Shown here one piece after another: positions 36,964-56,000 of a DNA stretch of 64,000 bases. The stretch lies in the NCBI RefSeq assembly GCF_002159945.1, contig NZ_NFJQ01000008.1, positions 62,001-126,000 of the forward strand, in the 5' to 3' direction. The stretch is from Cloacibacillus sp. An23 (GTDB lineage: Bacteria > Synergistota > Synergistia > Synergistales > Synergistaceae). The position numbers and the translations under genes were made by a program. The notes under the pieces were generated by a model. It saw only the letters and a program-made list of their open reading frames with translations. It did no database searches and was not told where the DNA came from. Position 1 is the first letter of the stretch, and the number at the start of each line of letters is the position of its first letter.

Positions 36964-37701
36964 ATGAAAGAGAACAAATACGACGACGAGATATTTTTTG
37001 AGAAATACGCGCAGATGGCGCGCTCAAAGTACGGCCTCGCGGCGGCCGGCGAGTGGGAGACTCTGCGTCCGATGCTGCCGGACTTCCGCGGAAAGCGCGT
37101 GCTCGACCTCGGATGCGGCTACGGCTGGCACTGCGTCTACGCGGCGGAAAACGGCGCGGCCTCCGTCGTCGGAATAGACATTTCCGAAAAAATGCTCGCC
37201 GCGGCGCGCGCTCGGACGAAGGCTGCGAACGTGCGCTACGTCCGAGAGGCGATAGAAGACGCGGACTTTCCGCCGGAAAGTTTCGACGTCGTGCTGAGCT
37301 CGCTCGCGCTTCACTACGTCGGGGACTTCGGCGCGGTCGTGAAAAAAGTGCGCCGTTTCCTCGCGGCCGGCGGAACGTTCGTATTCTCCGCCGAGCACCC
37401 CGTCTTCACCGCGCAGGGGCCGCAGGACTGGCACTATAATGCGGACGGCTCGATAGCCCACTTCCCGGTCGATAATTATTATTACGAAGGCCGCCGCGAC
37501 GCCGTATTCCTCGGCGAACGCGTCGTCAAATACCACCGCACGCTCGACGCCTACATCAACGCGCTGCTCTCGAACGGCTTTGCGCTGACCGGCTTCGCCG
37601 AGCCGCGCCCTACGGCGATGATGCTCGCGGAGATTCCCGGAATGCGCGACGAGATGCGCCGCCCGATGATGTTTATAGTATCCGCGGCGAAGCGCGGCTG
37701 A
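36964..37701 (+). CDS. Class I SAM-dependent methyltransferase
   Basis: A 245-residue cytosolic methyltransferase. SAM-binding motif I is VLDLGCGYGWHCVYAAENGA near residue 44, motif II VVGIDISEKMLAAAR, and motif IV FDVVLSSLALHYVGDF. The layout (SDR-like head, C-terminal lid) matches the UbiE/SmtA-like small-molecule group. The substrate is unknown, and neither neighbour gives a hint. AAAGAGAAA precedes the ATG. Confidence 0.85.
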   Translation: MKENKYDDEIFFEKYAQMARSKYGLAAAGEWETLRPMLPDFRGKRVLDLGCGYGWHCVYAAENGAASVVGIDISEKMLAAARARTKAANVRYVREAIEDADFPPESFDVVLSSLALHYVGDFGAVVKKVRRFLAAGGTFVFSAEHPVFTAQGPQDWHYNADGSIAHFPVDNYYYEGRRDAVFLGERVVKYHRTLDAYINALLSNGFALTGFAEPRPTAMMLAEIPGMRDEMRRPMMFIVSAAKRG

Positions 37702-37863
37702 TACAAGCGGATCCGCGGGCGAGCTGAGTCCTTCAAAATGCTGAATTTTGCTTAATTTTCATATGAAGTGTGTTTAATATGTTATACTTCTGGCAGATAC
37801 GAAAAAGCGGCATGAACGTATCTAAAATGCGCGCGGATGCGGAGGAGGGCTGTCCACGGCAAA

Positions 37864-39921
37864 ATGGGCGCGTCTTACCTGAATGAATCTGTCATAAGCG
37901 CAGTCTCGCGCGCCGTGGGCCATTCGCTCGACGTTCCGGCCTGCGTGCTGGACTTGGAGCTGAAGCAGCGGCTCGTTCTCGGCGGTGGCGGAGAGCGGTT
38001 CGCGGCGGATCTGTCGCGTCTGCTTGAGAGCGCCTCCGGCCCGGATGAGGCCGCGCGTATCGCGGACGCCGCGTCCGTCTATTGGACGCCGTGCGAGGCT
38101 GACGGCAGGACGGTCTGCTATATCGCCGCGCCGGCGGAGCGAGGCGAGCTCGCTGCGGCCTATCTGAAAGTCCTGATACAGGCCGAGTGCCGCATGGACG
38201 CGGAGGGCGGGGCCGAGGAGGAGGGGCGCAAGCGCTCGATGCTCGTCAGCCAGCTCGCCGGCTCCGGACGCATAGACTCGGAGGCGGAGTCATACCTCGG
38301 CGCTCTCGGCTATGAACGCGACATACTTCGCTGCGCGGTGCTCTGCGTCGTGGAGACCGCGTCGGGACATCACGACGGCGAGGTGCCGTTCATTTCTCTC
38401 GAACGCTGGGCCGCCGGGGCCGGGATACTGTCTCGCGAGGATATCTACGGCTACGCCGACGCCGGGCAGATGATAGTGTTCAAGGCCGTCCCTGGCGCCG
38501 ACTATACCTCTTACGCCGGAGAGATAAAAAGCATGGCGGCCTCTATGTCGGAGTACATATCGGAGCGTTCCTCCGGGCTCGCCGAGCTTTCGGTATACGC
38601 CGGAAGCGCCTATCAGGGAGTCTCGCTGCTTCATAAGAGCTACGCCGAGGCGGCGTATCTCTATTCACGGCACGGCGGAACGGGCGGATCGTGCCTCTTC
38701 ATCAACGACTTTATATTCGAATGGCTTTACTCCAATCTTGACGGCGCGGCGCGAAGGAACCTCGCGCGCGATATATCGTCGGCGCTGGACGAGAACCAGG
38801 AAATATCCGCCACGGCGGTGCGCCTGTCGCTGTCGGACTGCAGCCCGATAAAATGCGCGGAAGCTCTTGGCGTCCACCGCAACACGGTACTCCAGCGCAT
38901 AAGAAAAATAAAAGAGAGGACCGCGCTCGACCCGCTGCACAGCGTGCGCGACCGCGTAGCTCTGCGCGCCTGCGTCATAAACAGGACGCGGCGCACGGTG
39001 TGGAACGGCGGCGTAATCGTGCAGCCGGGCAGCGTGCTCAGCCTCGGGCTGCGCCATCTTTCGGAGCTGCTTTACGAGAAGAGCGGCGGCGGATTCCAGC
39101 TCAACATCCACACGGTATCGACCTCCGGCGACAATTACAAGCTATTCGGCATGCTGATGTCCGGCGCGCTGAACGTAGTCGTCGGCTCGACGATAGCGCT
39201 CTGCCCGTACACCGACAACAAAGCGCTCACACTTCATCTGCCTTTCCTCTTCAAGTCGCCGGACGAGGCGGAGTACGTCGTCCGCACCACGGTCCTCCCG
39301 GAGCTGCGCGACAGCCTCGACGAGGCCGGGATAATATGCTGCGGCCTATGGTCGATGGGCTGGCGCTGCCTCACCTCGCGCGGCACGCCCATCCGCGTCC
39401 CGTCCGACCTGAAGGGACGGCGGATAAGGATACTCGCGTCGGCCTCGATACGCGACTACTTCGCCGGCCTCGGCGCGGTGCCGCTCCAGATTTACTATAA
39501 CAACATCAAAGACGCGCTCGCCTCGAATATAATCAACTGCCAGGAGAATCCCTACAAGAACATCCTCGACATGGAATTCTACAAATACCAGGACTATGTG
39601 ACGGAGCTGCCTATATGGTACAGCATGGAGGCGCTCTGCATCTCTAAGAAATCGTGGCTCGAACTCGACGTGGAACGCCAGGAAATGTTCCGACAGGCGG
39701 CGGAGGAGAGCGGGGCGTGGGTGCGCCGCCGCCAGGTCGAGACGAACCGCGCCGCGAAGGAGGAGCTCGTGCGCCTCGGCATGAAGGTAATTGTCCCGAC
39801 CGACGACGAGATGGCTGTATGGCGCAGGAGCGTCAGGCCTCTTTACGAGGCGGAATCTCGGCGCGAATTCCTCACCAAGATAATGAAGGCGAAGAGACGC
39901 TATGCAAAGAGCAGACGCTGA
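37864..39921 (+). CDS. CdaR/PucR-type regulator fused to a TRAP solute-binding (DctP) domain
   Basis: A 685-residue cytosolic one-component regulator with an unusual architecture. Residues 1-130: a CdaR-like sensor region. About 130-300: a degenerate GGDEF-like region as in CdaR/PucR proteins. About 300-360: the PucR-type DNA-binding domain (ALGVHRNTVLQRIRKIKERT, with V337 in the recognition region). Residues 379-680: a complete TRAP DctP domain without signal peptide, keeping SDLKGRRIRI (R522 equals the carboxylate-binding arginine) and QENPYKNI (Q560-I567). It resembles the binding protein at 41279 over this part. The start at 37864 is uncertain (ATG 37837 is possible). It overlaps the next regulator by 20 bases. 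Confidence 0.85.
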   Translation: MGASYLNESVISAVSRAVGHSLDVPACVLDLELKQRLVLGGGGERFAADLSRLLESASGPDEAARIADAASVYWTPCEADGRTVCYIAAPAERGELAAAYLKVLIQAECRMDAEGGAEEEGRKRSMLVSQLAGSGRIDSEAESYLGALGYERDILRCAVLCVVETASGHHDGEVPFISLERWAAGAGILSREDIYGYADAGQMIVFKAVPGADYTSYAGEIKSMAASMSEYISERSSGLAELSVYAGSAYQGVSLLHKSYAEAAYLYSRHGGTGGSCLFINDFIFEWLYSNLDGAARRNLARDISSALDENQEISATAVRLSLSDCSPIKCAEALGVHRNTVLQRIRKIKERTALDPLHSVRDRVALRACVINRTRRTVWNGGVIVQPGSVLSLGLRHLSELLYEKSGGGFQLNIHTVSTSGDNYKLFGMLMSGALNVVVGSTIALCPYTDNKALTLHLPFLFKSPDEAEYVVRTTVLPELRDSLDEAGIICCGLWSMGWRCLTSRGTPIRVPSDLKGRRIRILASASIRDYFAGLGAVPLQIYYNNIKDALASNIINCQENPYKNILDMEFYKYQDYVTELPIWYSMEALCISKKSWLELDVERQEMFRQAAEESGAWVRRRQVETNRAAKEELVRLGMKVIVPTDDEMAVWRRSVRPLYEAESRREFLTKIMKAKRRYAKSRR

Positions 39922-41005
39922 ACGGCTCTTTCAGATGGCCTGCGCCGCGTTCCCGCGCGGCGGCGTCGCGCTCTTCGACGGCGGCGTCAGGCTGATGTGC
40001 CGCGAGGACGCCGAATGCGGCGTTCCGCCCGCACGCTTTGATATGAGGAAAGAGGCGTCGGTCTTTTCGCGCGGCGGACGGCTTTACTATCTCGTGCAGC
40101 TCCCGCTGCCTCCGTCCTTTCAGATATTCCTGTGCCTGCGCGCCGAAGATTATTCGAGCGCCGCTGTTCCAGTACGAATGCTCGACGTGCTCGCATCCGA
40201 GGCGCGCCGCTGCGGCGGCGAAAGCGCGCCGGATGATGCGCGCGCCGCCCGTCCGGGGGAGAACCGCCTTCTCGACAGCCTGCTCTATACGGACACGCTC
40301 GAGATGAAAGTCTACACCTTTCTGCTCGCCGAGGAATACGGCAAAGACCTCGGCATACCGCGCGCCGTCTGCGTCGTGAACGGCGGGGCCGAAGAACTGC
40401 GCGAGGCCGCGCGCGTCGCGTCGCGCTTTCGCGAGGCCGACGCGCAGGACATATGCGGCCTGACCGGCGAGGGACGGCTGGTGATATGCCGCTGCCTCGG
40501 CGAGACGCGGCGCTCGGTGAAGAGCAGGCTCGACGGATACCTCCGCGCCCTCTCCGAACGGATAAGCGCGCGCTGCGGGTTTGCGCCGGAGATATTCGTT
40601 GGTACGTACGCCGCCCAGCCCGAAGAATACCGCCTCAGCCTCGAGGCCGCGCTTATCGCGGGCGAATGGGCGCGCGCGGAAGGAAAGCGCGGCGGGATAT
40701 ACTACGCCTCGGAATATATTCTTGAATACACATTCCAGAAGACCGAGCCGTCGCAGCTCCGCCACTTCCTTGCGCCGTACGCGGAGCGGCTGCGCGGCGA
40801 GCCGGAGCTGCTCGCTACGGCAGAGGCACTTATCGAATGCGATATGAACGTGATCCTCACGGCGGAGAAGCTGTTTGTGCACAGAAACACCGTGACGATG
40901 AGGGTGTCGCGGCTGCGCGAGCTCCTCGGCGTCGACCCGCTGCACAGGGACACGGATAAATTCCTCCTTATGCTGATATGCGCATATTATAGGCGATATT
41001 GCTGA
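39902..41005 (+). CDS. CdaR/PucR-type transcriptional regulator
   Basis: A 367-residue regulator whose gene overlaps the end of the fusion regulator by 20 bases. The N-terminal half is a divergent sensor region; residues about 160-290 look like the GGDEF-like linker (PRAVCVVNGGAEELREAARV to EIFVGTYAAQPEEYRLS); the C-terminus is the PucR HTH domain (FVHRNTVTMRVSRLRELLGVDPL, V326 onward). It lacks the DctP domain of its neighbour. The coupled pair suggests a hetero-oligomer or a sensor/effector split for control of the TRAP operon that starts at 41279 (inference). Confidence 0.82.
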   Translation: MQRADAERLFQMACAAFPRGGVALFDGGVRLMCREDAECGVPPARFDMRKEASVFSRGGRLYYLVQLPLPPSFQIFLCLRAEDYSSAAVPVRMLDVLASEARRCGGESAPDDARAARPGENRLLDSLLYTDTLEMKVYTFLLAEEYGKDLGIPRAVCVVNGGAEELREAARVASRFREADAQDICGLTGEGRLVICRCLGETRRSVKSRLDGYLRALSERISARCGFAPEIFVGTYAAQPEEYRLSLEAALIAGEWARAEGKRGGIYYASEYILEYTFQKTEPSQLRHFLAPYAERLRGEPELLATAEALIECDMNVILTAEKLFVHRNTVTMRVSRLRELLGVDPLHRDTDKFLLMLICAYYRRYC

Positions 41006-41278
41006 TTACACGCCGCGCCGCCCGTTCATAGCCGGAAAACGACGCGAAGCTGTGCTCCGTGCACATTTTGTTTGCCGTTTTGTTAGAAATAGGAAATATA
41101 GAAAAATATGCGTGAAAGAATAAAATAAGTATAGTGAAAAAAGGTATATGTGACGGAGAGAATTGCCGGGAAAAGGCAGTTTCAAGACGGACGAGCGTAC
41201 GACGTCCGGCTTGATGGACTTTTGGGCTAAGCCCTAAAAGTTTCATAAAAACAAAAGCACAGAAGGGACGTTGAAATT

Positions 41279-42280
41279 ATGAGAAAAAGCATTATGTCCG
41301 CAGTGATGGCCCTTATGGTCGCGGCCGCCGCGTTCGCGGGGCAGGCCGAGGCCGCCACGACGCTGAGGCTCGGCCACGTCGTAGCCGACAACAGCAGCCT
41401 CGACAAGGGGCTCGACTACTTCGCCAAGCTCGTCTCCGACAAGTCCGGCGGAGAGCTCAAGATCCAGGTCTTCCCGAACTCCTCGCTCGGCGACAACACC
41501 GCTATGATGGAGCAGCTCCAGTTCGGCTCGCTCGACATGATGGCCCCGTCGGTCGCCGCGCTCTCCGGCTTCACGCCGAGCACCGCGATATTCGACCTGC
41601 CCTACCTCTTTAAGAACGAAGCCGCCGCTGAGGAAGTCCTCGACGGCCCGCTCGGCGACTCCGTGGGCAAAGCGCTCGAGCCGCAGGGATTCTACCTTCT
41701 CGGCTGGATGACCCAGAGCTGGCGCCACCTCACATGCAACAAAGAAGTGACGAAGCCCGCCGACGTCGCAGGCATAAAGATCCGCACGATGGACAGCAAG
41801 TACCACATGGCGCACTTCAACACGCTCGGCGCTTCCGCGATACCGATGGCGATGTCCGAGCTCTACACCGCGCTGCAGCAGGGAACCATCGACGCGCAGG
41901 AGAACCCCTACACGAACATAGTCAACTCGCGCTTCTATGAAGTCCAGAAGTACGTCGTCGAGACGGGCCACATCTACGACGCCTGCCCGCTCATCATCTC
42001 CACCATCACCTGGAACAGGCTCAACGACGACCAGAAGAAGATAATCAAGGAAGCCGCAGCCGAAGCGGTCAACTGGGAGCGCGCCGAGGTCAAGAAGGAC
42101 GACGATATCTTCCGCGAGCAGGTCAAGAAGAGCGGCACGACGGTCATCGTGCTGACGCCGGAGCAGCGCATGGAGTTCCGTAAAGCCGCCCAGCCCGTCT
42201 ACGACGAGTTCGTGAAGGAGCAGGGGCAGAGCGGAGCCGACGCAGTGAAGGCCGTCGAGGCGATCAACGCAAAGCACTAG
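41279..42280 (+). CDS. dctP: TRAP transporter solute-binding protein DctP (locus 2)
   Basis: A 333-residue periplasmic binding protein with a signal peptide (MRKSIMSAVMALMVAAAAFAG, cut near AEA-AT). DctP motifs are LRLGHVVADNSSLDKGLDYFAKLV, FPNSSLGDN, KPADVAGIKIRTMDSK (carboxylate arginine) and IDAQENPYTNIVNSRFYEVQKYV. It is the likely periplasmic counterpart of the cytoplasmic DctP domain in the regulator upstream, so the two may bind the same or related acids. The 270 bases before it are AT-rich and hold a hairpin at 41219-41243 just ahead of the ribosome site. Confidence 0.94.
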   Translation: MRKSIMSAVMALMVAAAAFAGQAEAATTLRLGHVVADNSSLDKGLDYFAKLVSDKSGGELKIQVFPNSSLGDNTAMMEQLQFGSLDMMAPSVAALSGFTPSTAIFDLPYLFKNEAAAEEVLDGPLGDSVGKALEPQGFYLLGWMTQSWRHLTCNKEVTKPADVAGIKIRTMDSKYHMAHFNTLGASAIPMAMSELYTALQQGTIDAQENPYTNIVNSRFYEVQKYVVETGHIYDACPLIISTITWNRLNDDQKKIIKEAAAEAVNWERAEVKKDDDIFREQVKKSGTTVIVLTPEQRMEFRKAAQPVYDEFVKEQGQSGADAVKAVEAINAKH

Positions 42281-42324
42281 GGTTTTAAGCGAACGATAAA
42301 CCTCAGATAGGTTTTTGAAGTCGC

Positions 42325-42360
42325 GGGGAGAGTGTGGGCTTCCCATGCTCTCCCCTTTGT
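42325..42360 (+). terminator. Hairpin between dctP and dctQ, locus 2
   Basis: GGGGAGAG (42325-42332) and CTCTCCCC (42348-42355) pair, with TGGG/CCCA extending the stem past a small mismatch, followed by TTTGTTG. Its place matches the hairpin between dctP and dctQ of locus 1. Confidence 0.7.
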
Positions 42361-42383
42361 TGTCTCAAAAAAAGGAGAATTTC

Positions 42384-42878
42384 ATGTTAATCGATAAAAA
42401 AGCACCGTGGTACGATAAAATCGAGATAGCGATGATAATCGTGCTCTTCAGCATCCTCACGGTCATACTTTTCGTAAACGTCGTCACGCGCTTCTGCTTC
42501 CACTACACGGCGACTTGGTCGGAGCAGGCCGCGCGCTATCTCTTCGTTTGGATGACCTTCGCCGGCGTCAGCCTCGCCGGCAAGACGAGCTCGCATCTGC
42601 AGGTCACGGTAGCGAACATGGTCTTCGGCGAGGAGCGCGCGAAGACTGTATTCCTCATCGGCGATATAATAGTCGTCCTCTTCGGCTGCCTGCTCACCTA
42701 TAAAATTTTCGGCGTCATGATGCGCGTCATGTCCACGGGACAGGTGTTCCCGGCCATGACGTGGCTGCCGTCGTGGACTCTCTACCTCGCCGGCGTGCTC
42801 GGCATGGCGGGCTTCACGCTCAGGGTCATACAGCGCCGCTGCAGGACCGCAGCTGCGGCTAAGCACAAGGAGGCTTAA
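42384..42878 (+). CDS. dctQ: TRAP transporter small membrane subunit DctQ (locus 2)
   Basis: A 164-residue protein with four hydrophobic segments and the DctQ landmark FHYTATWSEQAARYLFVWMTFAGVSLAGKTSSHLQV. The ATG at 42384 follows AAAGGAGAA; the longer frame from 42315 reads through the intergenic hairpin and is not used. dctM starts 6 bases later. DctQ holds the large subunit and contacts the periplasmic binding protein. Confidence 0.92.
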   Translation: MLIDKKAPWYDKIEIAMIIVLFSILTVILFVNVVTRFCFHYTATWSEQAARYLFVWMTFAGVSLAGKTSSHLQVTVANMVFGEERAKTVFLIGDIIVVLFGCLLTYKIFGVMMRVMSTGQVFPAMTWLPSWTLYLAGVLGMAGFTLRVIQRRCRTAAAAKHKEA

Positions 42879-42883
42879 CTGAT

Positions 42884-44170
42884 ATGATAGCTTTACTTAT
42901 CGGCACCCTTCTGGTGCTTCTTTTCCTCACCGTTCCTATCTTCGCCGGACTCGCCATATCGACGCTCGCCGTCTTCATGGCCTACTTCCCGGGACAGATG
43001 ATGGACATGATGCTCGCGCAGTCTATGGTCAAGAGCTGCGACTCCTTCGCACTGATGGCGATACCGTTCTTCATGCTCGTCGGATCGCTGATGTCCACCT
43101 CGGGGCTCGCGCAGAAGCTCGTCAAGGTCGCCGAATCGGTGACCGGCGACTCGGCGGGCGGCCTCGGCACCTCGGCTATGATAGCGAGCATGCTCTTCGC
43201 CGCCATCTCAGGTTCCGGCCCCGCGACCGCGGCGGCCATCGGAGGCATAATGATCCCCGCTATGATGAAGCAGGGCTACGCTCCAGAATACTCGGCTACG
43301 CTGCTCGCCTCCGGCTCGACGATAGGCCCGGTCATCCCGCCGAGCATTCCTATGATAATGTTCGCAGTCACGATAGGCTGCTCGACGACGACGCTGTTCA
43401 TGGGCGGAGTCGTCCCCGGAATCATGATGGGCATCGGCCTCATCATCTACAACAAGCTCTACTCGAAGAAGCATAACTACCGTGGCAAGCCCTCCTCCGG
43501 CGGCACGATGAAGGCCGTGCGCGAAGGCATCGGCGCTCTGCTCATGCCCGTCATCGTCCTCGGCGGTATCTACACCGGCATATTCACTCCGACAGAGTCC
43601 GCGGTCGTCGGCGTCGTCTACTCGATGGCGGTCAGCACCTTCATCTATAAGACTCTGACATGGGACGGCCTCAAGGAAGCTTTCGTTGACGCGGCTATAA
43701 CCTCCGCGACCATAATGATCCTCTTCGGCGGAGCCAACACCTTCGGGCGCATACTGACGCTCGCCGACATACCGAACCAGATCAGCAGCGCGATACTTTC
43801 CTTCACGGACAGCAAGGTGCTTATCATGCTGATACTGAACTTCATACTGCTCATCGTCGGCATGTTCATAGATACGAACTCCGGCGTCATACTCTTCGCG
43901 CCGATCATCGTCCCGATACTCAAGGCGCTCGGCTATCACGAGATATTCATCGGCGTAATGATGGTTGTCAACCTCTGCATAGGAATGCTGACGCCTCCTA
44001 TGGGGCCGAACCTCTTCATAACGATGAAGATCGCTGGCGTTTCGCTCGAGCAGGCGATGAAGCAGGTCGTGGTTCAGGTCATAATCCTCTACATAGTGCT
44101 CGCGATCATGATACTGATACCGGACACGGTGCTCATTCTCCCGAAGCTTTTCGGAATGATCCCTTGGTAA
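42884..44170 (+). CDS. dctM: TRAP transporter large membrane subunit DctM (locus 2)
   Basis: A 428-residue, about 12-helix protein closely parallel to the locus 1 DctM. Signatures are MAIPFFMLVGSLMSTSGLAQKLVKVAES, GGLGTSAMIASMLFAAISGSGPATAAAIG, GPVIPPSIPMIMFA and IGMLTPPMGPNLFI. Unlike locus 1, its composition is as GC-rich as the surrounding genes, so the two transporters are not a recent duplication. The enzymes of locus 2 follow on the same strand. Confidence 0.94.
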   Translation: MIALLIGTLLVLLFLTVPIFAGLAISTLAVFMAYFPGQMMDMMLAQSMVKSCDSFALMAIPFFMLVGSLMSTSGLAQKLVKVAESVTGDSAGGLGTSAMIASMLFAAISGSGPATAAAIGGIMIPAMMKQGYAPEYSATLLASGSTIGPVIPPSIPMIMFAVTIGCSTTTLFMGGVVPGIMMGIGLIIYNKLYSKKHNYRGKPSSGGTMKAVREGIGALLMPVIVLGGIYTGIFTPTESAVVGVVYSMAVSTFIYKTLTWDGLKEAFVDAAITSATIMILFGGANTFGRILTLADIPNQISSAILSFTDSKVLIMLILNFILLIVGMFIDTNSGVILFAPIIVPILKALGYHEIFIGVMMVVNLCIGMLTPPMGPNLFITMKIAGVSLEQAMKQVVVQVIILYIVLAIMILIPDTVLILPKLFGMIPW

Positions 44171-44213
44171 CGGATTTTCGGCAGTTAAGATATAGTTAAG
44201 GAGATATAGTAAA

Positions 44214-44966
44214 ATGTATTTGGCTAATGAGTTGGACGTAAACGGACGTCTTCTGCGCGGAAACGTGCGCATGCCGGACTCGGGCGGTCCTTTCCCGACG
44301 ATAGTCTTCCTCCACGGCTTCACTGTGTGGAAGACGGGGCCGCAGAGGCTTTACGAAGAGTTCGTCCGTATGGCCGTGAAGGAAGGCTTCTGCGTCGTGC
44401 GCTACGACTTCTACGGCACGGGCGAGAGCGAGGGCGAGTTCTATGAAATGACGATAGGCAGCGAAATGAACGAGACCGCCGCCATCTTCGAGTGGGCCGC
44501 CAAGCAGCCGTACGTCGATGTAAACAACATGTTCCTCGGCGGACACAGCCTCGGCGCTCTGCTCGCGCTCGTCGAAGCGCCTCATATACAGCCTAAGGCG
44601 GCCTTCGGATGGTCTACGGCTCTCACGATGCTCTTCCAGGCGGGACAGCGCACGCGCACGATGCGCGGGCCGACTGAGCGCGGATGGGACATCGACGGCC
44701 TCGAGCTCTCGCGCGAATTCATGGACGAGTGCGCCGGCATGGACTTCCTCGAGATGGTGAAGGGCTACGACAAGCCGGTACTTCTCATCCACGGCACTGG
44801 CGACGTGGACATCCCCGTCGAGAGCGCCTACGCGCTTAAGAAGGTCTACGGGGACAACTGCGAGCTCGACATCGTGGAAGGGGCGAACCACCGCTTCCTT
44901 TCGCTTCCGTGGAAGAAGCACGCTTACGAGAAGACTCTGGAGTTCCTGAAGAAACAGCTTGGCTGA
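44214..44966 (+). CDS. Alpha/beta-fold hydrolase
   Basis: A 250-residue cytosolic serine hydrolase. The oxyanion stretch is VFLHGFTVWKTGP, the nucleophile elbow GGHSLGA (Ser near residue 111), the acid in HGTGDVDIP and the histidine in GANHRFLSL. This is the complete triad of the family that includes feruloyl esterases and dienelactone-type hydrolases. AAGGAG precedes the ATG. Set between a TRAP transporter and a LarA-like protein, it probably splits an ester, amide or thioester bond of the imported compound or its product (inference). Confidence 0.88.
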   Translation: MYLANELDVNGRLLRGNVRMPDSGGPFPTIVFLHGFTVWKTGPQRLYEEFVRMAVKEGFCVVRYDFYGTGESEGEFYEMTIGSEMNETAAIFEWAAKQPYVDVNNMFLGGHSLGALLALVEAPHIQPKAAFGWSTALTMLFQAGQRTRTMRGPTERGWDIDGLELSREFMDECAGMDFLEMVKGYDKPVLLIHGTGDVDIPVESAYALKKVYGDNCELDIVEGANHRFLSLPWKKHAYEKTLEFLKKQLG

Positions 44967-44978
44967 GAGGTGGAAGCA

Positions 44979-46247
44979 ATGGAGATAAAGATCCCTTACG
45001 GGAAGACTTATCAGACGCTTGACATCAAAGAGGAATATCAGCTCGTCGAATCGAAGATACAGGAGCTCGGCGGCGGCGCGGACGGCGACAGGATCGTCCT
45101 TGAGGCTATGGCTTCGCCCATAGCTTCACCGAAGCTCAGCGAGCTTGCGGCGGGGAAGAAGAACGCGGTGGTCATAATCAGCGACCACACGCGCCCCGTG
45201 CCGAGCAAACAGATAATCCCGCACATGCTGGCGGAGCTGCGCGCCGGGAATCCCGACATCGACATAACCCTGCTCGTCGCGACCGGCTGCCACAGGGGCA
45301 CCACTCCCGAGGAGCTCGTGCATAAGCTCGGCGAGGAAATCGCGTCGCGCGAGCGCATAGTCGTCCACGACTGCGACAGTTCCCCGCTGACGGAGCTCGG
45401 CGTCCTTCCTTCCGGAGCGCGCCTCGTCGTCAACTCGCTCGTCGCGAACGCGGAGCTTGTTGTATCCGAAGGCTTCATCGAGCCTCACTTCTTCGCCGGC
45501 TTCTCCGGCGGCCGCAAGAGCATACTTCCCGGCGTATGCAGCCGCGTGACGGTGCTAGGCAATCACTGCGCGGATTTCATCGACGATCCGAAGTCGCGCA
45601 TGGGCGTGATTGATGGCAACCCGATAAACCGCGACATGGAATGCGCCGCTCGCATGGCGAAGCTCGCATACATCGTCAACGTCGTGGTCAACGAGGCTCA
45701 CGAGGTCGTAGCGGCCTTCGCCGGCGACGCGATAGAGGCCCATCACGCGGGATGCGCCTATCTCGCAAAGTACTGCGAGGCCGACCCTGCGTACAAGGCG
45801 GACATCGTAATAACGTCCAACGGCGGCGCCCCGCTCGACCAGAACGTCTATCAGGCGGTCAAGGGACTTACGACCGCTGCGGACGCGGCCGGCGAAGACG
45901 GCGCTCTGATAATATGCGCCGAGTGCGCGGACGGAATCGGAGGCGACAGCTTCTACAAGGCGCTCAGCGAGTGTTCGACCCCCGAGGAGCTGCTCGAGGA
46001 GATACGCCGCGTGCCGATGGACGAAACTGTGCCAGACCAGTGGCAGTATCAGATACTCGCCCGGATACTCGAGAAGCATCACGTCTACTTCGTCACACGC
46101 CCCGAGCTCGAAAAAGAGATAACGGCGATGAAGATGGAATACGCGCCCTCGCTCGAGGAGGCCTACGCGCGCGCCCGCGCGCTCAGGGGCGCTTCCGCGC
46201 GCGTGACGGTCATCCCCAACGGGGTTTCCCTGATAATCAAACAGTAA
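44979..46247 (+). CDS. LarA-family protein (nickel-pincer 2-hydroxyacid racemase/epimerase)
   Basis: A 422-residue member of the LarA family (former DUF2088). The residues that bind the nickel-pincer nucleotide in Lactobacillus LarA have clear counterparts: His in TGCHRGT, His and Lys in PHFFAGFSGGRKSILPG, and a further His in LGNHCAD. LarA homologs racemise lactate, malate, phenyllactate and other 2-hydroxyacids. A LarC2 protein, needed to make the cofactor, is encoded at 50605, which supports activity in this cell. GAGAGG places the start at 44979, 12 bases after the hydrolase stop. Confidence 0.88.
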   Translation: MEIKIPYGKTYQTLDIKEEYQLVESKIQELGGGADGDRIVLEAMASPIASPKLSELAAGKKNAVVIISDHTRPVPSKQIIPHMLAELRAGNPDIDITLLVATGCHRGTTPEELVHKLGEEIASRERIVVHDCDSSPLTELGVLPSGARLVVNSLVANAELVVSEGFIEPHFFAGFSGGRKSILPGVCSRVTVLGNHCADFIDDPKSRMGVIDGNPINRDMECAARMAKLAYIVNVVVNEAHEVVAAFAGDAIEAHHAGCAYLAKYCEADPAYKADIVITSNGGAPLDQNVYQAVKGLTTAADAAGEDGALIICAECADGIGGDSFYKALSECSTPEELLEEIRRVPMDETVPDQWQYQILARILEKHHVYFVTRPELEKEITAMKMEYAPSLEEAYARARALRGASARVTVIPNGVSLIIKQ

Positions 46248-46276
46248 CCCAGCAGCAATAACATAAGCCGCTCCCT

Positions 46277-46310
46277 CAGCCTTCCGCCTTTGCCGTTGCG
46301 CGGAAGGCCG
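46277..46310 (+). other. Intercistronic hairpin before GrdE-like gene
   Basis: CCTTCCGC (46280-46287) and GCGGAAGG (46300-46307) form an 8-bp stem in the 94-base gap after the LarA-like gene. There is no T run, so it may be a processing or stability element and not a terminator. Confidence 0.45.
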
Positions 46311-46341
46311 GGGGCGGCGTGTCACAAAAAGGAGTGAAAAC

Positions 46342-47607
46342 ATGGCAAAACCTTTTGAAATAGATTATATCTACGTGCGCTCGGTGCGCTTCGGAGAGAA
46401 GTCGTCGCTCGAGGACGGCGTGCTGACGATAAACCGCGACGAGCTGCGCGAGCTTTGCTCGAGCGACCTGTTTTCGCGGCTCGAGATAGAGCTCGCGGCT
46501 CCGGGCGAAAGCTGCCGCATACTCGCGATACACGACGTCATGCAGCCGCGCTGCAAGGTCGAGAACCCCGACGAGACTTATCCCGGCATTCTCGGCAAAC
46601 TCGCGCCGGCCGGCGAGGGGAAGACGCTGGCGCTCAAGGGCGTCGTCGTCTCCGACATCTATTACGCTAAATGCAACATCAAGTATTACCTCGATATGGG
46701 CGGCCCCGCGGCGCGCTACTCGCATTTCTCGAAGCACTTCCACGTCTGCATAGACGCGGAGCCCGCCGATGGCGTGAGCGACGCCAGCTACGCCGAGGCG
46801 CTGAAGCTCGCATCGCTCAAGGCGAACGTCTACCTCGCGAAGCTCGGCCTCGGACATAAAATCGACTACTCGGAGCGCTTCGAGTGGAACCCCATCGAGT
46901 ACAAGCCCGGCGAGAAGCGTCTGCCGCGCGTCGCATACTTCGCGACGCACCTCGCATCGCACGACACGTGGAACTTCCTCTTCTACGGACAGAGCGCTCT
47001 CGGCTTCCTGCCGATGGTGGTGCAGCCGACTGAGATACTCGACGGCGCGATGGTCTGGCGCTACTGGGAGCCGAACTACTATCTCCAGAACGAGATGTAT
47101 ATCAAAGAGCTGCTCAACCGCCACGGCAAGGATCTCGAATTCGTCGGATGCGTCTTCGCGAACAACGTCATGAAGCTCGACGGCAAAGAGACGATGGGCA
47201 TGATAGGCGCGCGCCTCTGCCGCGACACCCTGCACGCGGACTGCGTGGTAGTCAACAAATCCGGCATGGGACACGCGCAGCTCGACTCGGCCCTCGCCTT
47301 CAACTGGATGGAGAAGCTCGGTATGCCGGCGATAAGCAACCAGGCCGCCGTCTCTAACTACGAGCCGGGGGACATGCTCGTAATAGCAGACCCGCGCGTG
47401 GACGCGGTCATAAGCAGCGGGCGCAACTGGGACGTGGAACACCCGAAGGTCGACCGCCTCATAGGCGAACACGCGAACGTGCCGTGCCTGCTCGGCTACA
47501 ATCCGTGGGGGCCTTTCACGCACACGACGAACTACGCGCTGTGCGGCTGCTGGTCTCAGATAGGCGATTATTTCCAGACGGCGGATGCCGACCTGGAGTG
47601 GAAGTAA
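46342..47607 (+). CDS. GrdE-type subunit, divergent, lacking the pyruvoyl cysteine (locus 2)
   Basis: A 421-residue member of the GrdE/GrdG/GrdI family, aligned with the locus 1 protein through DIYVRSVRFGEKSSLEDGVL-like start, HDVMQPRCKVENPDETYPGILG, VVQPTEILDGA and RHGKDLEFVG. In the segment where GrdE is cut at a cysteine to form the pyruvoyl group (residues 234-265 here) there is no Cys, Ser or Thr at all, and the segment is 3 residues shorter than in locus 1. The subunit therefore probably stays uncut or uses other chemistry. It is paired with a Sec-containing GrdB-type protein 13 bases downstream. Confidence 0.85.
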   Translation: MAKPFEIDYIYVRSVRFGEKSSLEDGVLTINRDELRELCSSDLFSRLEIELAAPGESCRILAIHDVMQPRCKVENPDETYPGILGKLAPAGEGKTLALKGVVVSDIYYAKCNIKYYLDMGGPAARYSHFSKHFHVCIDAEPADGVSDASYAEALKLASLKANVYLAKLGLGHKIDYSERFEWNPIEYKPGEKRLPRVAYFATHLASHDTWNFLFYGQSALGFLPMVVQPTEILDGAMVWRYWEPNYYLQNEMYIKELLNRHGKDLEFVGCVFANNVMKLDGKETMGMIGARLCRDTLHADCVVVNKSGMGHAQLDSALAFNWMEKLGMPAISNQAAVSNYEPGDMLVIADPRVDAVISSGRNWDVEHPKVDRLIGEHANVPCLLGYNPWGPFTHTTNYALCGCWSQIGDYFQTADADLEWK

Positions 47608-47620
47608 GGAGGTATGCGCC

Positions 47621-48940
47621 ATGTCTGATAAATTAAGGATACTTCATTACATAAACCAGTTCTACGGAGGTATAGGCGGCGAGGATCAGGCGAGCGTCGG
47701 ACTCTCGACAAAAGACGGCCCCGTCGGCCCCGGTATGCTTATGAAGGCCGTGCTCGCGGGACGCGGCGAGATCGTCAAGACGGTCATCTGCGGCGACAAC
47801 TATATATCCGAGCACCAGGCCGAGGTGATACCGCAGATACTCGATATAATCCGCGAGGTGAAGCCCGACCTTGTGCTCGCGGGCCCAGGCTTCAACGCCG
47901 GACGCTACGGCATAGCCTGCGCGGCGCTGACTGCGGCCGTGCAGGAGCAGCTCAAGATCCCCTGCGCTACGGCGCTGTTCTCGGAGAACCCGGGCACAGA
48001 CCTTTATAAGAACCGCTGCTACATCGTGCAGACCGACAACAACGCGAAGAACATGAAGGACGCGATGACGCGCCTCGTCGAGTTCGGCCTCAAGCTCGCC
48101 TCGGGCGAAACGATACGCGACGGCAAGCAGGAGGGCTACCACGGCAGCGGCCCCGCGATAGAGGTGGACTACTCGACGCCGGCCTGCAAGCGCGGCGTGG
48201 ACATGCTTCTCAACAAATATTACGGCAGGCCCTTCCGCACAGAGGTCGTCATGCCGAACCACGAGGAGATACCGGTGCCGGTGCTGTCGAAGCCGCTTTC
48301 AGAATGCCTCGTAGCGGTCGTGACCGACGGCGGACTCGTGCCGCGCGGCAACCCTGACAGGATGCCGCCGACGAACTCTAAGAACTGGCGCTGCTACTCG
48401 TTCGCAGGGCAGGACTACCTGAAAGCCGAGGATTACGAGGTCAGCCATCAGGGCTACAACAACGCCTTCGTACTTCAGGACCCGAACCGCCTAGTGCCTG
48501 TCGACTGCCTGCGCGAGGAGGTAAAGAAAGGGCGCATAGGCGCGCTGCTCGACCACTACTACATGACCGCGGGCGTCATGACTCCGCTCGACATGAGCAA
48601 GAAGCTCGGCGAAGGCATAGCGCAGGCGCTGCTCGCGGACCATGTCGACGCCGTGATCCTCACATCCACCTGAGGAACGAGCTCTCGCTGCGGCGCAGTG
48701 ATGACAAAAGAAATACAGCGCGCCGGCATACCGGTCGTGCATGTCACGAACCTTACGAAGATATCGGAGGGCATAGGCGCGAACAGGATACTTCGCGGCA
48801 ACAGCGTCCTCCACGTATTCGGCAACCCGTCGCTTCCTCACGACAAGGAAGTAGACTACCGCCGCGAGATGGTCGAGAAGGCTCTCGCCCTTCTCGAGGA
48901 AACTCCGCAGAACGGAGCCCACGCGGTAGTCTCCGAGTAA
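47621..48940 (+). CDS. GrdB-type selenoprotein (locus 2)
   Basis: A 439-residue protein including selenocysteine encoded by TGA at 48671-48673 (residue 351). Readthrough gives ILTST-U-GTSSRCG-AVMTKEIQRAGIP, the GrdB signature, and continues as normal coding sequence to TAA at 48938-48940. Start ATG 47621 follows AAGGAGG. The N-terminal ILHYINQFYGGIGGEDQA and NAGRYGIACAAL are family blocks shared with the locus 1 protein. The Sec and nearby Cys (U-x5-C) likely form the redox-active selenide-sulfide pair. The general partners GrdA, GrdC and GrdD are not in the window. Confidence 0.93.
48685..48701 (+). promoter_or_regulatory. Candidate bacterial SECIS hairpin (locus 2)
   Basis: TCGCTG (48685-48690) and CAGTGA (48696-48701) form a 6-bp stem (one G-U pair) with loop CGGCG, starting 12 bases after the last base of the TGA, as in locus 1. 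Confidence 0.75.
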
Positions 48941-48969
48941 CCGCCGGAACATAGCAGAATATACGCAAT

Positions 48970-49010
48970 TAAGCTCCGCGTGACTGTACTGTCCGCGGAG
49001 CTTATTTTAT
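48970..49010 (+). terminator. Terminator after locus 2 selenoprotein gene
   Basis: AAGCTCCGCG (48971-48980) and CGCGGAGCTT (48994-49003) form a perfect 10-bp stem followed by ATTTTAT. It marks the end of the operon that starts at dctP (41279). Confidence 0.85.
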
Positions 49011-49135
49011 CGCGCATCTCCGGCGGAGACCGCTCTTGCAATTTTGCGGTATATATATTAGAGTTGGTCTAGTTGTATTAGCGTAACGCAACCTACGGTG
49101 TGCGGAAGTTTTATAGAAAGCTGGGAGGCTGGCGT

Positions 49136-49576
49136 ATGATAGACGAAACGCAGGCTTTGGAGGGATTCGGCTCGGGCGTGATCTGCTCGATGCTGGTGTT
49201 CGGCGAGCTGGCGACCGAGCTCGGGCTGGACGAAAAGACGGCGCGGCGCATAGCGTCCTGCTTCGGCTCCGGCATGGAGCACGCGGGCGTCTGCGGCTGC
49301 GTGACCGGCGCGTATATGGCGCTCGGCCTGAAATACGGCGTCGGAGGCCCGGGCGAGGCCGAACGCGCAGCGAAGCTGAAAGAAAAGAAAGACGAGTTCG
49401 ACCGCCGCTTTATTAAAAAATACGGAAGCGTCAACTGCAAAGAGCTGCTCGGCGGCCTTGACCCCGCGGTGCAGTCGGAGCTGAACGCGGCGGCCGGAGC
49501 CGGGCTTTTCAAAAGCGTCTGCGCGCCAGCGGTGTGCTACGCGTGCGCGGCGGCGAGGGAGCTTTTGTCCGAGTGA
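49136..49576 (+). CDS. C_GCAxxG_C_C family redox protein
   Basis: A 146-residue protein of the C_GCAxxG_C_C family (DVU_1555-like). The conserved cysteine pattern appears as SCFGSGMEHAGVCGCVTGAYMALG near residue 38, with NCKELLG and a late VCYACAAAREL. Family members are small putative redox or metal-binding proteins of anaerobes, often near Fe-S or selenium enzymes; no activity is known. I chose ATG 49136 after GGGAGG. It lies just downstream of the Grd operon, past a terminator, so a functional tie is only suggested by position. Confidence 0.82.
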   Translation: MIDETQALEGFGSGVICSMLVFGELATELGLDEKTARRIASCFGSGMEHAGVCGCVTGAYMALGLKYGVGGPGEAERAAKLKEKKDEFDRRFIKKYGSVNCKELLGGLDPAVQSELNAAAGAGLFKSVCAPAVCYACAAARELLSE

Positions 49577-49755
49577 CGGCTCCCGGCGGCGCGGCCCCGC
49601 GAGCCTTTTCTCTTTTATCGGCAAAGCGCCGGATATTGTGCCGGCGGGGCGGACGCCGTAATATATAACTGCGCCGTACTCCGGCGGGGCGCGCGCCGGG
49701 CCGGAAAAGTCCGGGACAATGAGACGCACGGTTTTTGTCAAAGGGGAGATCACAG

Positions 49756-50538
49756 ATGAAATTTCAGCAAATCAGGGGAGCGACGACGAAAATAACCTAC
49801 GCGGGGAAATGTTTCCTCGTAGACCCGTTCTTCGCTGAGAAGGACGCCTTCCCTCCGTTCGAGAGCTGCTTCCATCCGGAGCTGCGCTGGCCCACGTCGC
49901 CGCTGCCGTTTCCGCCCGAGGAAGCGATGCGCGGCATAGACGCCGTGATAATGACGCACTTCCATCCTGACCATTTCGACGAGTATGCGGCGAAGGCTCT
50001 GCCGAAGGATATAAAGTTCTTCACTCAGGACGAATGGGACGCGGATATAGTAAAGAAGCTCGGCTTCACGAACGTTGAGACGCTTGAGTACTCCGGCTCG
50101 AAATTCGGAGAGGCGGAGCTTTGCAAGACGGACTGCGTGCACGGAGACCCGGAAAAAACTAAGAGCTTTTACGACGCTTTCGGCATCCGCGGCAAAGCCT
50201 CCGGCGTCGTGTTCAAAAATCCCGGGGAGAAGACTTTCTATCTCGCCGGCGACACGATATGGGCGGACTGCGTGCGCCGCGCGCTCGGCAGATATTCGCC
50301 GGACGTTGTGGCGGTGAACGCGGCGGGCGCGCAGTTCCTGACGGGAGGCCTCATCATCATGGGGACGGACGACGTGCTGAAAGTGCGCGAGGCCGCGCCG
50401 GAGGCGCTGATCATAGTCTCGCACATGGACGCGGTGCCGCACGCCTCCGTGAGCCGCGCGGACATGAGAAGGTTCATAGAAGCCGAACATCTGGAAAATA
50501 TCGCAGTGCCGGAGGACGGGGAAATTTTGACCTTGTAG
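49756..50538 (+). CDS. Metallo-beta-lactamase-fold hydrolase (UlaG-like)
   Basis: A 260-residue MBL-fold enzyme. The metal motif HxHxDH reads MTHFHPDHFDEYA near residue 73; further ligands are in FYLAGDTIWAD and SHMDAVPHA. The start KFQQIRGATTKITYAGKCFLVDP is typical of the UlaG/L-ascorbate-6-phosphate lactonase-like group and of related metal-dependent hydrolases. Cytosolic. Substrate unknown; a lactone or phosphodiester is plausible. AAGGGGAGAT precedes the ATG. Confidence 0.85.
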   Translation: MKFQQIRGATTKITYAGKCFLVDPFFAEKDAFPPFESCFHPELRWPTSPLPFPPEEAMRGIDAVIMTHFHPDHFDEYAAKALPKDIKFFTQDEWDADIVKKLGFTNVETLEYSGSKFGEAELCKTDCVHGDPEKTKSFYDAFGIRGKASGVVFKNPGEKTFYLAGDTIWADCVRRALGRYSPDVVAVNAAGAQFLTGGLIIMGTDDVLKVREAAPEALIIVSHMDAVPHASVSRADMRRFIEAEHLENIAVPEDGEILTL

Positions 50539-50604
50539 CGCGCGCCGTCCGCCGGGTATTTTCCGCCGCTTTGAGCTAAAATAAAGCCGAAAGGCGGTGC
50601 TGAG

Positions 50605-51078
50605 ATGGCTGAAGGAGAATCCGGCGGCCTCATAAGAGGACGCGCCATAGAGATAAGCGCGAACATCGACGACATGACTGGCGAGGACCTCGGCGCTGCG
50701 ATGGAGCTGCTGCTCGCTGCCGGGGCGCTGGACGTTTGGTTCGAGCATATACAGATGAAAAAGAACCGTCCGGCGGTGAAGCTCTGCGTTCTGGCCGCGC
50801 CGGAGGAAACGGAGCGCTTCGCGGAGCTTATGCTGCGCCATACGACGACGCTAGGCGTGCGTATGCGCGAGGTCGAGCGGCTGATGCTCGCGCGGGAGAT
50901 CCGTAAAGTCGGGACGCGCTACGGCGAAGTGCGCTTCAAGCGCGGCATGCTCGGCGGCGAAACGCTGAAAGAGACGCCCGAGTACGAGGACATAAGAAGG
51001 ATAGCGCACGACACCGGGCTTCCGATGGCCCGCGTGCGCGCGGAGGCCGCCGTGGATGCGGAAATTCAGGCACTTTAA
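50605..51078 (+). CDS. larC2: LarC2-like nickel-insertion protein for the nickel-pincer cofactor
   Basis: A 157-residue protein equal to the C-terminal half of LarC (former DUF111). The diagnostic stretch is ISANIDDMTGEDLGAAMELLLAAGALDVWFEHIQMKKNRPAVKL, followed by TTTLGVRMREVERLML. LarC inserts nickel into the pincer nucleotide used by LarA, and in many bacteria it is made as LarC1 plus LarC2. LarC1, LarB and LarE are not in this window. It supports a functional cofactor for the LarA-like protein 4.4 kb upstream. It overlaps the next gene by 23 bases. Confidence 0.85.
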   Translation: MAEGESGGLIRGRAIEISANIDDMTGEDLGAAMELLLAAGALDVWFEHIQMKKNRPAVKLCVLAAPEETERFAELMLRHTTTLGVRMREVERLMLAREIRKVGTRYGEVRFKRGMLGGETLKETPEYEDIRRIAHDTGLPMARVRAEAAVDAEIQAL

Positions 51079-55461: not shown

Positions 55462-56000
55462 GTTTGTTCCCCCGTTCACCATTGTTCGCCGCGCGGAGGC
55501 GCGGTCTAGGACTTTTTTCATTATAGCACAGAGCTCTTGGCGCACGCCGCGCGGCGCGCCTGGCCTTGCGTGGCGCCTGCGACGGGGCGTTGCTTATATA
55601 TTGTATGAACTTTTATAAAAATTACATGTCGCCATGCAAATCTTTTGCGCCCGGTGAAACGGGGCGGGCCCTGCCTGGCCTCCGCTCCGTATCGCGTAAC
55701 CTCATATTGCGGCATATCGCTTCGTTTAGTCTTGGTATTTAAGGCGGATGTCCCGCATAGAAGATTCACGGAACGACGGCGTTTTTATGAAAAAGCAAGT
55801 AAATATAAACGGGCGCAAAGCGAAGCGGAACGGCAGAACTTCGCCGTCCCGCCTTTTATTACGAGCCGCCGCGTACCCCTGGCAGAATCGCGGCGGCGCG
55901 CAAAGCGTTTTTGCTCGGCGTAGGCGTTTCAACTCTCGCGCCCGCGCCGGCGCGGATTAGAGACCGGAGCGGAGAGCAGCCGCTCCTGCCTCTGTTTTCG
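55462..56000. other. Intergenic region, no gene seen
   Basis: About 540 bases between gpsA and the adhesin gene, both on the minus strand. It holds the second copy of the dispersed repeat (55607-55796). Short frames here look random and lack ribosome sites. Confidence 0.55.
55607..55796 (+). repeat. Dispersed intergenic repeat, copy B
   Basis: Aligns with 5479-5675 in the same orientation. The most similar part is the tail AGAAGATTCACGGAACGACGG with TTTTTATGAAAAAG, and the middle block GCATATCGCTTCGTTTAG. Confidence 0.6.

Follow-up and report, generated by a model that had tools for sequence, protein, structure and literature searches.

What does a TRAP solute-binding domain do inside the cell, in one chain with a DNA-binding domain? 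The question is raised by a gene in a 64,000-nucleotide stretch of the Cloacibacillus sp. An23 genome (the window; contig NZ_NFJQ01000008.1, positions 62,001 to 126,000). To our knowledge, TRAP-type binding proteins are known only as parts of transporters or as sensors outside the membrane. The frame of this gene is open over 685 codons and then reaches a stop; its longest ORF begins nine codons upstream, at 37837. The gene and the domain in question are:

37864..39921, + strand: fusion regulator A, with an N-terminal region, GGDEF_2 (residues 135-264), HTH_30 (324-369) and DctP (385-663)
38986..39918, + strand: DctP domain of fusion A (residues ~375-685), with R501, R522, E561 and N562 kept, N at 547 and I at 584

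The earlier note on this DNA had reported a PucR-type HTH that continues in the same frame into a full DctP domain, and the Pfam matches bear this out. GGDEF_2 (E 1e-05, 26.2 bits against a cut-off of 24.5), HTH_30 (E 1.9e-11, 44 bits, cut-off 27) and DctP (E 5.8e-51, 173.9 bits, cut-off 23.4) follow one another in a single chain, with the HTH segment VHRNTVLQRIRKIKERT, R522 and QENPYKNI all in place. The HTH is not C-terminal, as a DctP domain of ~310 residues comes after it. The NCBIfam model TRAP_S1 was also matched (159 bits, above the cut-off of 50); scores lay below the cut-off for TIGR00787 of NCBIfam (131.2 bits, cut-off 175.05) and for the CdaR equivalog NF008550 (22.6 bits, cut-off 612). 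A whole-chain AlphaFold2 model of fusion A had a mean pLDDT of 88.9 and a pTM of 0.75. In this model the last helix of the HTH part stops at residue 374 and the first DctP strand runs from 378, leaving three residues between them. Residues 377-679 aligned to the TRAP binding protein 4xeq_B (Z 37.7, rmsd 2.0, 298 residues) and residues 376-680 to 7bbr (Z 37.5). The regulator half modelled alone reached a pLDDT of 88.4 and a pTM of 0.66, and the top structure match to the fold of residues 119-375 was the Rv2242 fragment 9f80 (Z 13.6, 223 residues, rmsd 8.0), followed by 3onq (BAD_0249; Z 12.9), both of which we take to be PucR-type. The matches listed by the structure search covered either the DctP part or the regulator half, and none extended across both.

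The domain had been placed in the cytosol by the earlier note because it lacks a signal peptide, and hydropathy agrees. No signal peptide or membrane segment was detected in fusion A (maximum 19-residue Kyte-Doolittle mean 1.67, and 1.14 near the N-terminus) or in any of the 12 fusions described below (maximum 19-residue mean 1.85; the gene at locus L031 lacks its N-terminus there), whereas all eight cognate DctPs, encoded beside fusions, have a hydrophobic N-terminus (15-residue means 2.29-3.02). Pfam found no kinase domain in the fusions. Fusion A thus carries a cytosolic DNA-binding domain and a solute-binding-protein fold within a single chain, and is probably a one-component regulator, cytosolic by hydropathy, with a TRAP solute-binding domain directly behind a PucR-type HTH.

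The same architecture was found in 12 distinct fusion genes, four from Synergistota, seven from Bacillota and one from Sphaerochaeta (a Spirochaete). Most come from MAGs, one of the Bacillota fusions from a bin whose label, Enterocloster bolteae, is unreliable; one comes from a complete genome, that of Petroclostridium sp. X23. HTH_30 was detected in all 11 full-length fusions and GGDEF_2 in 10 of them. The An23 genome itself carries another intact fusion, at L021:6430-8481, which shares 34% identity with fusion A; a TGA that seemed to lie inside this copy precedes its likely GTG start, and the frame is open. Within the family, 2 of 52 genomes have a fusion, An23 and one of the same genus (a contig of Candidatus Caccocola faecipullorum, Synergistaceae). 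In the phylum, 3 of 185 Synergistota genomes have one, with at most six candidates scored per genome; a match in a fourth genome (G173) was a plain DctP. A scan with two short patterns over the contigs of 84,980 species returned 33 loci, 10 of them (L027-L036) with a fusion, including two records already counted. In samples that include the starting genomes, the frequency was 1/391 in the class of Petroclostridium and 1/392 in the phylum of the Spirochaete, both with at most two candidates scored per genome, and 2/46 in the class of L033; all fusion frequencies are lower bounds. Among plasmid records, 688 match the fusion and none covers 80% of the query. L031 and L067 (G191) appear to be one fusion gene split by two contig ends, with H at its R522 position.

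Fusion A had been taken for a lone regulator, and this has to be given up: it is one half of a conserved pair of overlapping genes. A second PucR-type regulator gene on the same strand overlaps the fusion gene in 12 of 12 loci, by 20-179 nt as measured from the first possible start codon, which inflates the largest value. Eleven of the 12 partners have HTH_30; the other one is truncated at the end of its contig. In the window, the partner and the genes that follow are:

39902..41005, + strand: partner regulator B, with HTH_30 found, GGDEF_2 just below the cut-off and a 20-nt overlap with the end of A
41279..42280, + strand: dctP, TRAP solute-binding protein, cognate of the fused domain, with a hydrophobic N-terminus
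42315..42878, + strand: dctQ, small TRAP membrane subunit, from its place between dctP and dctM and its conserved counterparts; 42315 may be upstream of the actual start
42884..44170, + strand: dctM, large TRAP membrane subunit, from sequence, place and conserved counterparts
44214..44966, + strand: alpha/beta hydrolase, with ferulic acid, cinnamoyl and chlorogenic acid esterases among its PDB relatives
44970..46247, + strand: LarA-type nickel-dependent racemase (575.2 bits, cut-off 460)
46342..47607, + strand: FarE-like protein (755.7 bits, cut-off 675 of the model for the fluoroacetate reductase subunit FarE)
47585..48940, + strand: GrdB/FarB-like protein, with an in-frame UGA at 48671-48673

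The dctP gene starts 1.36 kb past the fusion stop, in agreement with the TRAP operon that the earlier note had seen about 1.4 kb downstream, and the association extends to the family: TRAP genes lie within 5 kb of the fusion in all 10 loci with visible flanks. Eight of these 10 have a DctP of the cognate group, which is downstream on the same strand in the window, converges on the regulators in L035 and is divergent from them in L021, L025, L028, L029, L034 and L067 (taken as the other part of the L031 gene). In L033 and L036 a different DctP lies 4.3-4.4 kb from the fusion. A contig end cuts one flank of L009 and of L030, and no TRAP gene was detected in the 9 kb visible behind the regulator pair of L030. 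A hydrolase gene accompanies the cassette in seven loci (the window, L021, L025, L028, L029, L034 and L035); the closest PDB relative of the hydrolase in the window, 7q4h, is not named as an esterase of the kinds listed above. LarA also adjoins the cassette of L035, with a nickel insertion protein close by, and Petroclostridium sp. X23 has a dctPQM-hydrolase-larA operon. The neighbours are an IlvD/EDD dehydratase and a 3-hydroxyacyl-CoA dehydrogenase-like gene in L033, and 3-hydroxyisobutyrate-dehydrogenase-like and GlcNAc-2-epimerase-like genes in L030. These neighbouring genes suggest that the ligands are probably hydroxy acids, sugar acids or esters of acids, and likely several rather than one compound.

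Two of the cassettes deserve separate mention. L021:2349-9586 is a second full cassette in the An23 genome, with hydrolase, dctM, dctQ, dctP and a divergent fusion with its partner regulator. At L033:1497-8485, and likewise in L036, the fusion is transcribed away from a run of DRL, 3HCDH and IlvD/EDD genes, behind which come TRAP genes with a DctP of another clade; no hydrolase gene is present, and the substrate of the cassette may have changed there. The second cassette, the overlapping regulator gene and the shared intergenic motif described below were all absent from the earlier note.

The origin of the fused domain was examined in a tree of 43 DctP domains (12 fused, 8 cognate and 23 other DctPs; the remaining DctPs, mostly actinobacterial, were omitted). 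The 12 fused domains formed one group (100/100). The sister of this group, as read from a midpoint-rooted drawing and not from an inferred root, consisted of the eight cognate DctPs (together 93/86) and three further DctPs (L026, L011 and L012). In a regulator tree that left out the truncated A half of L031, the A halves (11 rows) and the B proteins (12 rows) each formed one group (100/100), with similar branching. The single fused clade and the parallel branching of A and B fit one fusion event followed by spread of the cassette between phyla. Between fusion A and the Caccocola fusion, the DctP half showed dN 0.16, dS 0.94 and 74% identity, and the first 134 residues dN 0.50 and 44% identity: the added DctP domain is under purifying selection and has changed less than the N-terminal region. 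The most likely history is a single recruitment, by which a TRAP binding protein became the sensor, in the cytosol, of a regulator that is made of two genes and acts on organic-acid import.

The residues of the fused domain were compared with those of SiaP. In the accessible part of PMC11550005, R127 and R147 of SiaP hold the ligand carboxylate, and the triad R127-E186-H209 is proposed to signal opening and closing. According to the accessible part of PMC9352664, the HiSiaP variant E172R formed no complex with the membrane domains, with a ligand affinity like that of the wild type. By residue spacing from R147, set equal to R522, E172 corresponds to position 547, E186 to 561 and H209 to 584; R127 corresponds to column 501, with one extra residue between 501 and R522 in fusion A. 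At 501 and 522 all eight cognate DctPs have R, at 547 and 561 E, and at 584 H. All 12 fusions keep R501, and 11 keep R522, L031 having H in its place. Loss of the ligand pocket, which the earlier note had named as a refuting outcome, is not indicated by these arginines or by the whole-domain fold (Z 37.7). E561 is also present in 11 of 12 (D in L035). The docking glutamate E547, present in 31/31 stand-alone DctPs (the 8 cognates and 23 others), is found in none of the 12 fusions (D in eight, N in three, K in one). H584 is kept in 1/12 fusions compared to 19/23 other DctPs, and the lobes may therefore move differently. N562, presumably a functional residue, is invariant in all 12 fusions, and W496, Y545, Y564 and N566 are invariant as well. 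Positions 433 and 435, which we take to be those of HiSiaP D58 and S60, gave no clean contrast, as they vary in stand-alone DctPs too. D58 and S60 are among the docking residues in the accessible part of PMC9352664, and N189, named in that of PMC11550005, would be position 564 by spacing. Keeping the carboxylate arginines and not the docking residue is, at the level of sequence, what a cytosolic sensor would require. The change at the docking position is mild in 8 of the 12 fusions (to D), and E172R is the one variant of this residue tested in HiSiaP in the accessible part of PMC9352664.

Which compound the domain would bind is a separate matter. The earlier note had supposed that a transporter binding protein was recruited to sense the very acid that the TRAP system imports. 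Recruitment is well supported by the single clade, the fold, the kept arginines and absent docking glutamate, the selection on the domain and the TRAP neighbours; identity of the two ligands is a further supposition. Closer resemblance to the own cognate, the expected outcome, was not found: the fused domain is on average 26.8% identical to the cognate of its own locus and 26.8% identical to the cognates of other loci, so that sensing of the imported acid itself is not supported by own-cognate identity. The main alternative is that the fused domain senses a cytosolic metabolite of the imported compound, such as what the esterase, racemase or reductase encoded nearby would produce, and we give it somewhat less than an even chance. 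It would account for the missing resemblance and for the hydrolase gene in seven loci, and it fits the invariant W496 and Y545 of 12/12 fusions, compared to L, M or S and F or M in the eight cognates; both positions fall in the binding-site region, but neither is a proven contact here. Against it, the fused domains and the DctPs diverge together: distances among fusions and among cognates were correlated with r 0.78 (50/40320 permutations), and with r 0.60 (67/5040 permutations) when one near-copy was left out. This would fit a shared ligand but also plain co-inheritance; it is in keeping with inheritance as a cassette and does not settle the ligand. At position 560, both proteins of the genome's second cassette have E and the other seven pairs have Q, which is a single event.

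We consider it unlikely that the fused domain is a scaffold that binds no small molecule and serves, for example, to pair A with B. Loss of H584 in 11/12 fusions and the H at the R522 position of L031 would be in keeping with such a scaffold, but R501 and R522 are otherwise kept, the fold is complete and DctP is the better conserved half. Somewhat less probable still is that the domain reads transport activity through contact with the TRAP membrane subunits at their cytosolic side, and not through a bound acid. The constant TRAP neighbourhood speaks for this, but the face on which periplasmic binding proteins dock is the periplasmic one, and the docking glutamate is absent from all 12 fusions. 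A sequencing frameshift joining two genes, which the earlier note had named as a refuting outcome, is practically excluded, and so are a run-on and an assembly artefact, since the same joint recurs in the 11 further genes, across three phyla and in the complete genome of Petroclostridium sp. X23, and all 11 full-length frames are open.

A site for the regulator pair was sought in the intergenic regions of the cassettes. Shared 9-letter words there were AT-rich words only, near the level of shuffled sequence. A near-palindrome, TGTRY-N5-GCACA, was picked by eye, and its instance in the window is:

41051..41065, no strand assigned: candidate operator TGTGCTCCGTGCACA, between B and dctP, the sole exact TGTRY-N5-GCACA match in the window

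Of 13 intergenic regions, 7 have the pattern exactly and 10 when one mismatch is allowed, in a test that is not independent as the same regions were used for picking it; 100 dinucleotide shuffles gave means of 0.03 regions (maximum 1) and 0.32 regions (maximum 2), respectively. The L030 region, outside those used for picking, has a site with one mismatch, and the two L035 regions have none at up to two mismatches. The genome has seven distinct exact sites, two of them in the two fusion cassettes (C8:103051, which is window 41051, and C10:84204). Neither the genome as a whole nor the window is enriched in the motif: in the genome it has 10 strand matches, against 15 for a reversed control, and in the window it has 8 when up to one mismatch is allowed, where 5.78 are expected and 25/100 shuffles reach as many. 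With a leave-one-out matrix, the cassette region held the best site of its locus in 6 of 12 loci and ranked 2, 2, 3, 5 (the window), 8 and 20 in the others; in the window the matrix favours 37744 (rank 5) over the palindrome. The combined P was 2e-6 over 10 loci, the two near-copies ClostR1 and MI being omitted from the 12, a value uncorrected for the lower G+C of intergenic DNA. Restricted to noncoding positions (8 loci), the cassette region ranked first in 6/8 and second in 2/8. Four loci have TGTAT as their left half-site and others have TGTGC, and the right one is mostly GCACA; this difference between half-sites suggests unequal partners. Rfam gave no match in 37000-50800.

Collectively, the reading that we favour, and consider likely, is a two-gene one-component system with a captured TRAP binding domain as its sensor. 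Fusion A would be made together with the overlapping regulator B of the same type, and the two, as homo- or heterodimers, would bind TGTRY-N5-GCACA close to the genes of the transporter and the regulators. A carboxylate taken up by the cell, or a compound made from it in the cytosol, would bind at R501 and R522, the two DctP lobes would close on it, and the short link would relay the closure to the HTH, whereupon the dctPQM/hydrolase operon would be switched on. Here we infer ligand binding, the type of dimer, the use of the site and activation rather than repression. More tentatively, with the odds somewhat against the full set, the locus may represent an undescribed regulatory cassette passed between phyla, in which a cytosolic TRAP domain without docking residue forms a heterodimer with a sensor-less relative on unequal half-sites, one per partner.

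Fusion A shares features with several known systems. Like the PucR/CdaR-type regulators 9f80 and 3onq, it has HTH_30, GGDEF_2 and the corresponding fold of residues 119-375; unlike them, it has an internal HTH followed by DctP, an overlapping second regulator and no CdaR equivalog score. With TRAP solute-binding proteins (DctP, SBP family 7, HiSiaP) it shares DctP and TRAP_S1 scores above cut-off, the full fold and the twin arginines. In contrast to transport DctPs, it has no signal peptide, is cytosolic by hydropathy and carries a DNA-binding half, and the docking glutamate is missing from the fusions; by its sequence, fusion A therefore lacks the defining features of a transport DctP, namely export and the docking residue. 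Histidine kinases with DctP-type sensor domains exist, which sense outside the membrane and signal via the kinase. Fusion A likewise uses DctP for sensing, but has no kinase domain and no membrane segment. SgrR consists of an HTH and an SBP_bac_5-type domain and Btr of an AraC and a FeuA-like domain; these and the LacI family are cytosolic regulators whose sensor has the fold of a transporter binding protein. The kind of sensor is the same in fusion A, but the families of DNA-binding and binding-protein domains are others. It is best read as working like SgrR or Btr without being a member of those families. We know of no regulator of the SgrR, Btr or LacI type with a TRAP-type sensor or an overlapping partner regulator. 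No description of the fusion architecture was found in the open-access literature, and a literature search on SgrR- and Btr-like regulators gave nothing of use. In the accessible part of PMC13188858, the PucR and DctP genes are separate.

If this reading is correct, TRAP-type binding proteins have also been turned into intracellular sensors. The fusions and their cognates would then offer naturally matched pairs of the same fold, one member for 'transport' and the other for 'sensing', from which to learn what each job requires. The cassette would mark substrate-specific TRAP operons; through its sensors, ligands could become easier to find for organic-acid importers that are uncharacterised, and the fused sensors could serve as biosensor parts.

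In this genome the cassette precedes a LarA and FarEB-like operon, whose true substrate it might reveal. The in-frame UGA in the GrdB/FarB-like gene probably encodes selenocysteine. The published farACEB fluoroacetate reductase operon, in the accessible part of PMC10838667, contains an antiporter and a radical-SAM gene and no TRAP system. FarE- and FarB-like genes are common to both operons; here a TRAP system, a hydrolase, LarA and the regulator pair are present instead, and the substrate may not be fluoroacetate. Behind the farB-like gene, at 49100-51078, three ORFs were recognised by eye: one that looks C_GCAxxG-type, one resembling a metallo-hydrolase and one like the nickel insertion protein LarC. 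Further along, on the reverse strand at 55785-57638, an ORF with repeated TAxGNxAxASG-like units resembles, also by eye, the head repeats of trimeric autotransporter adhesins.
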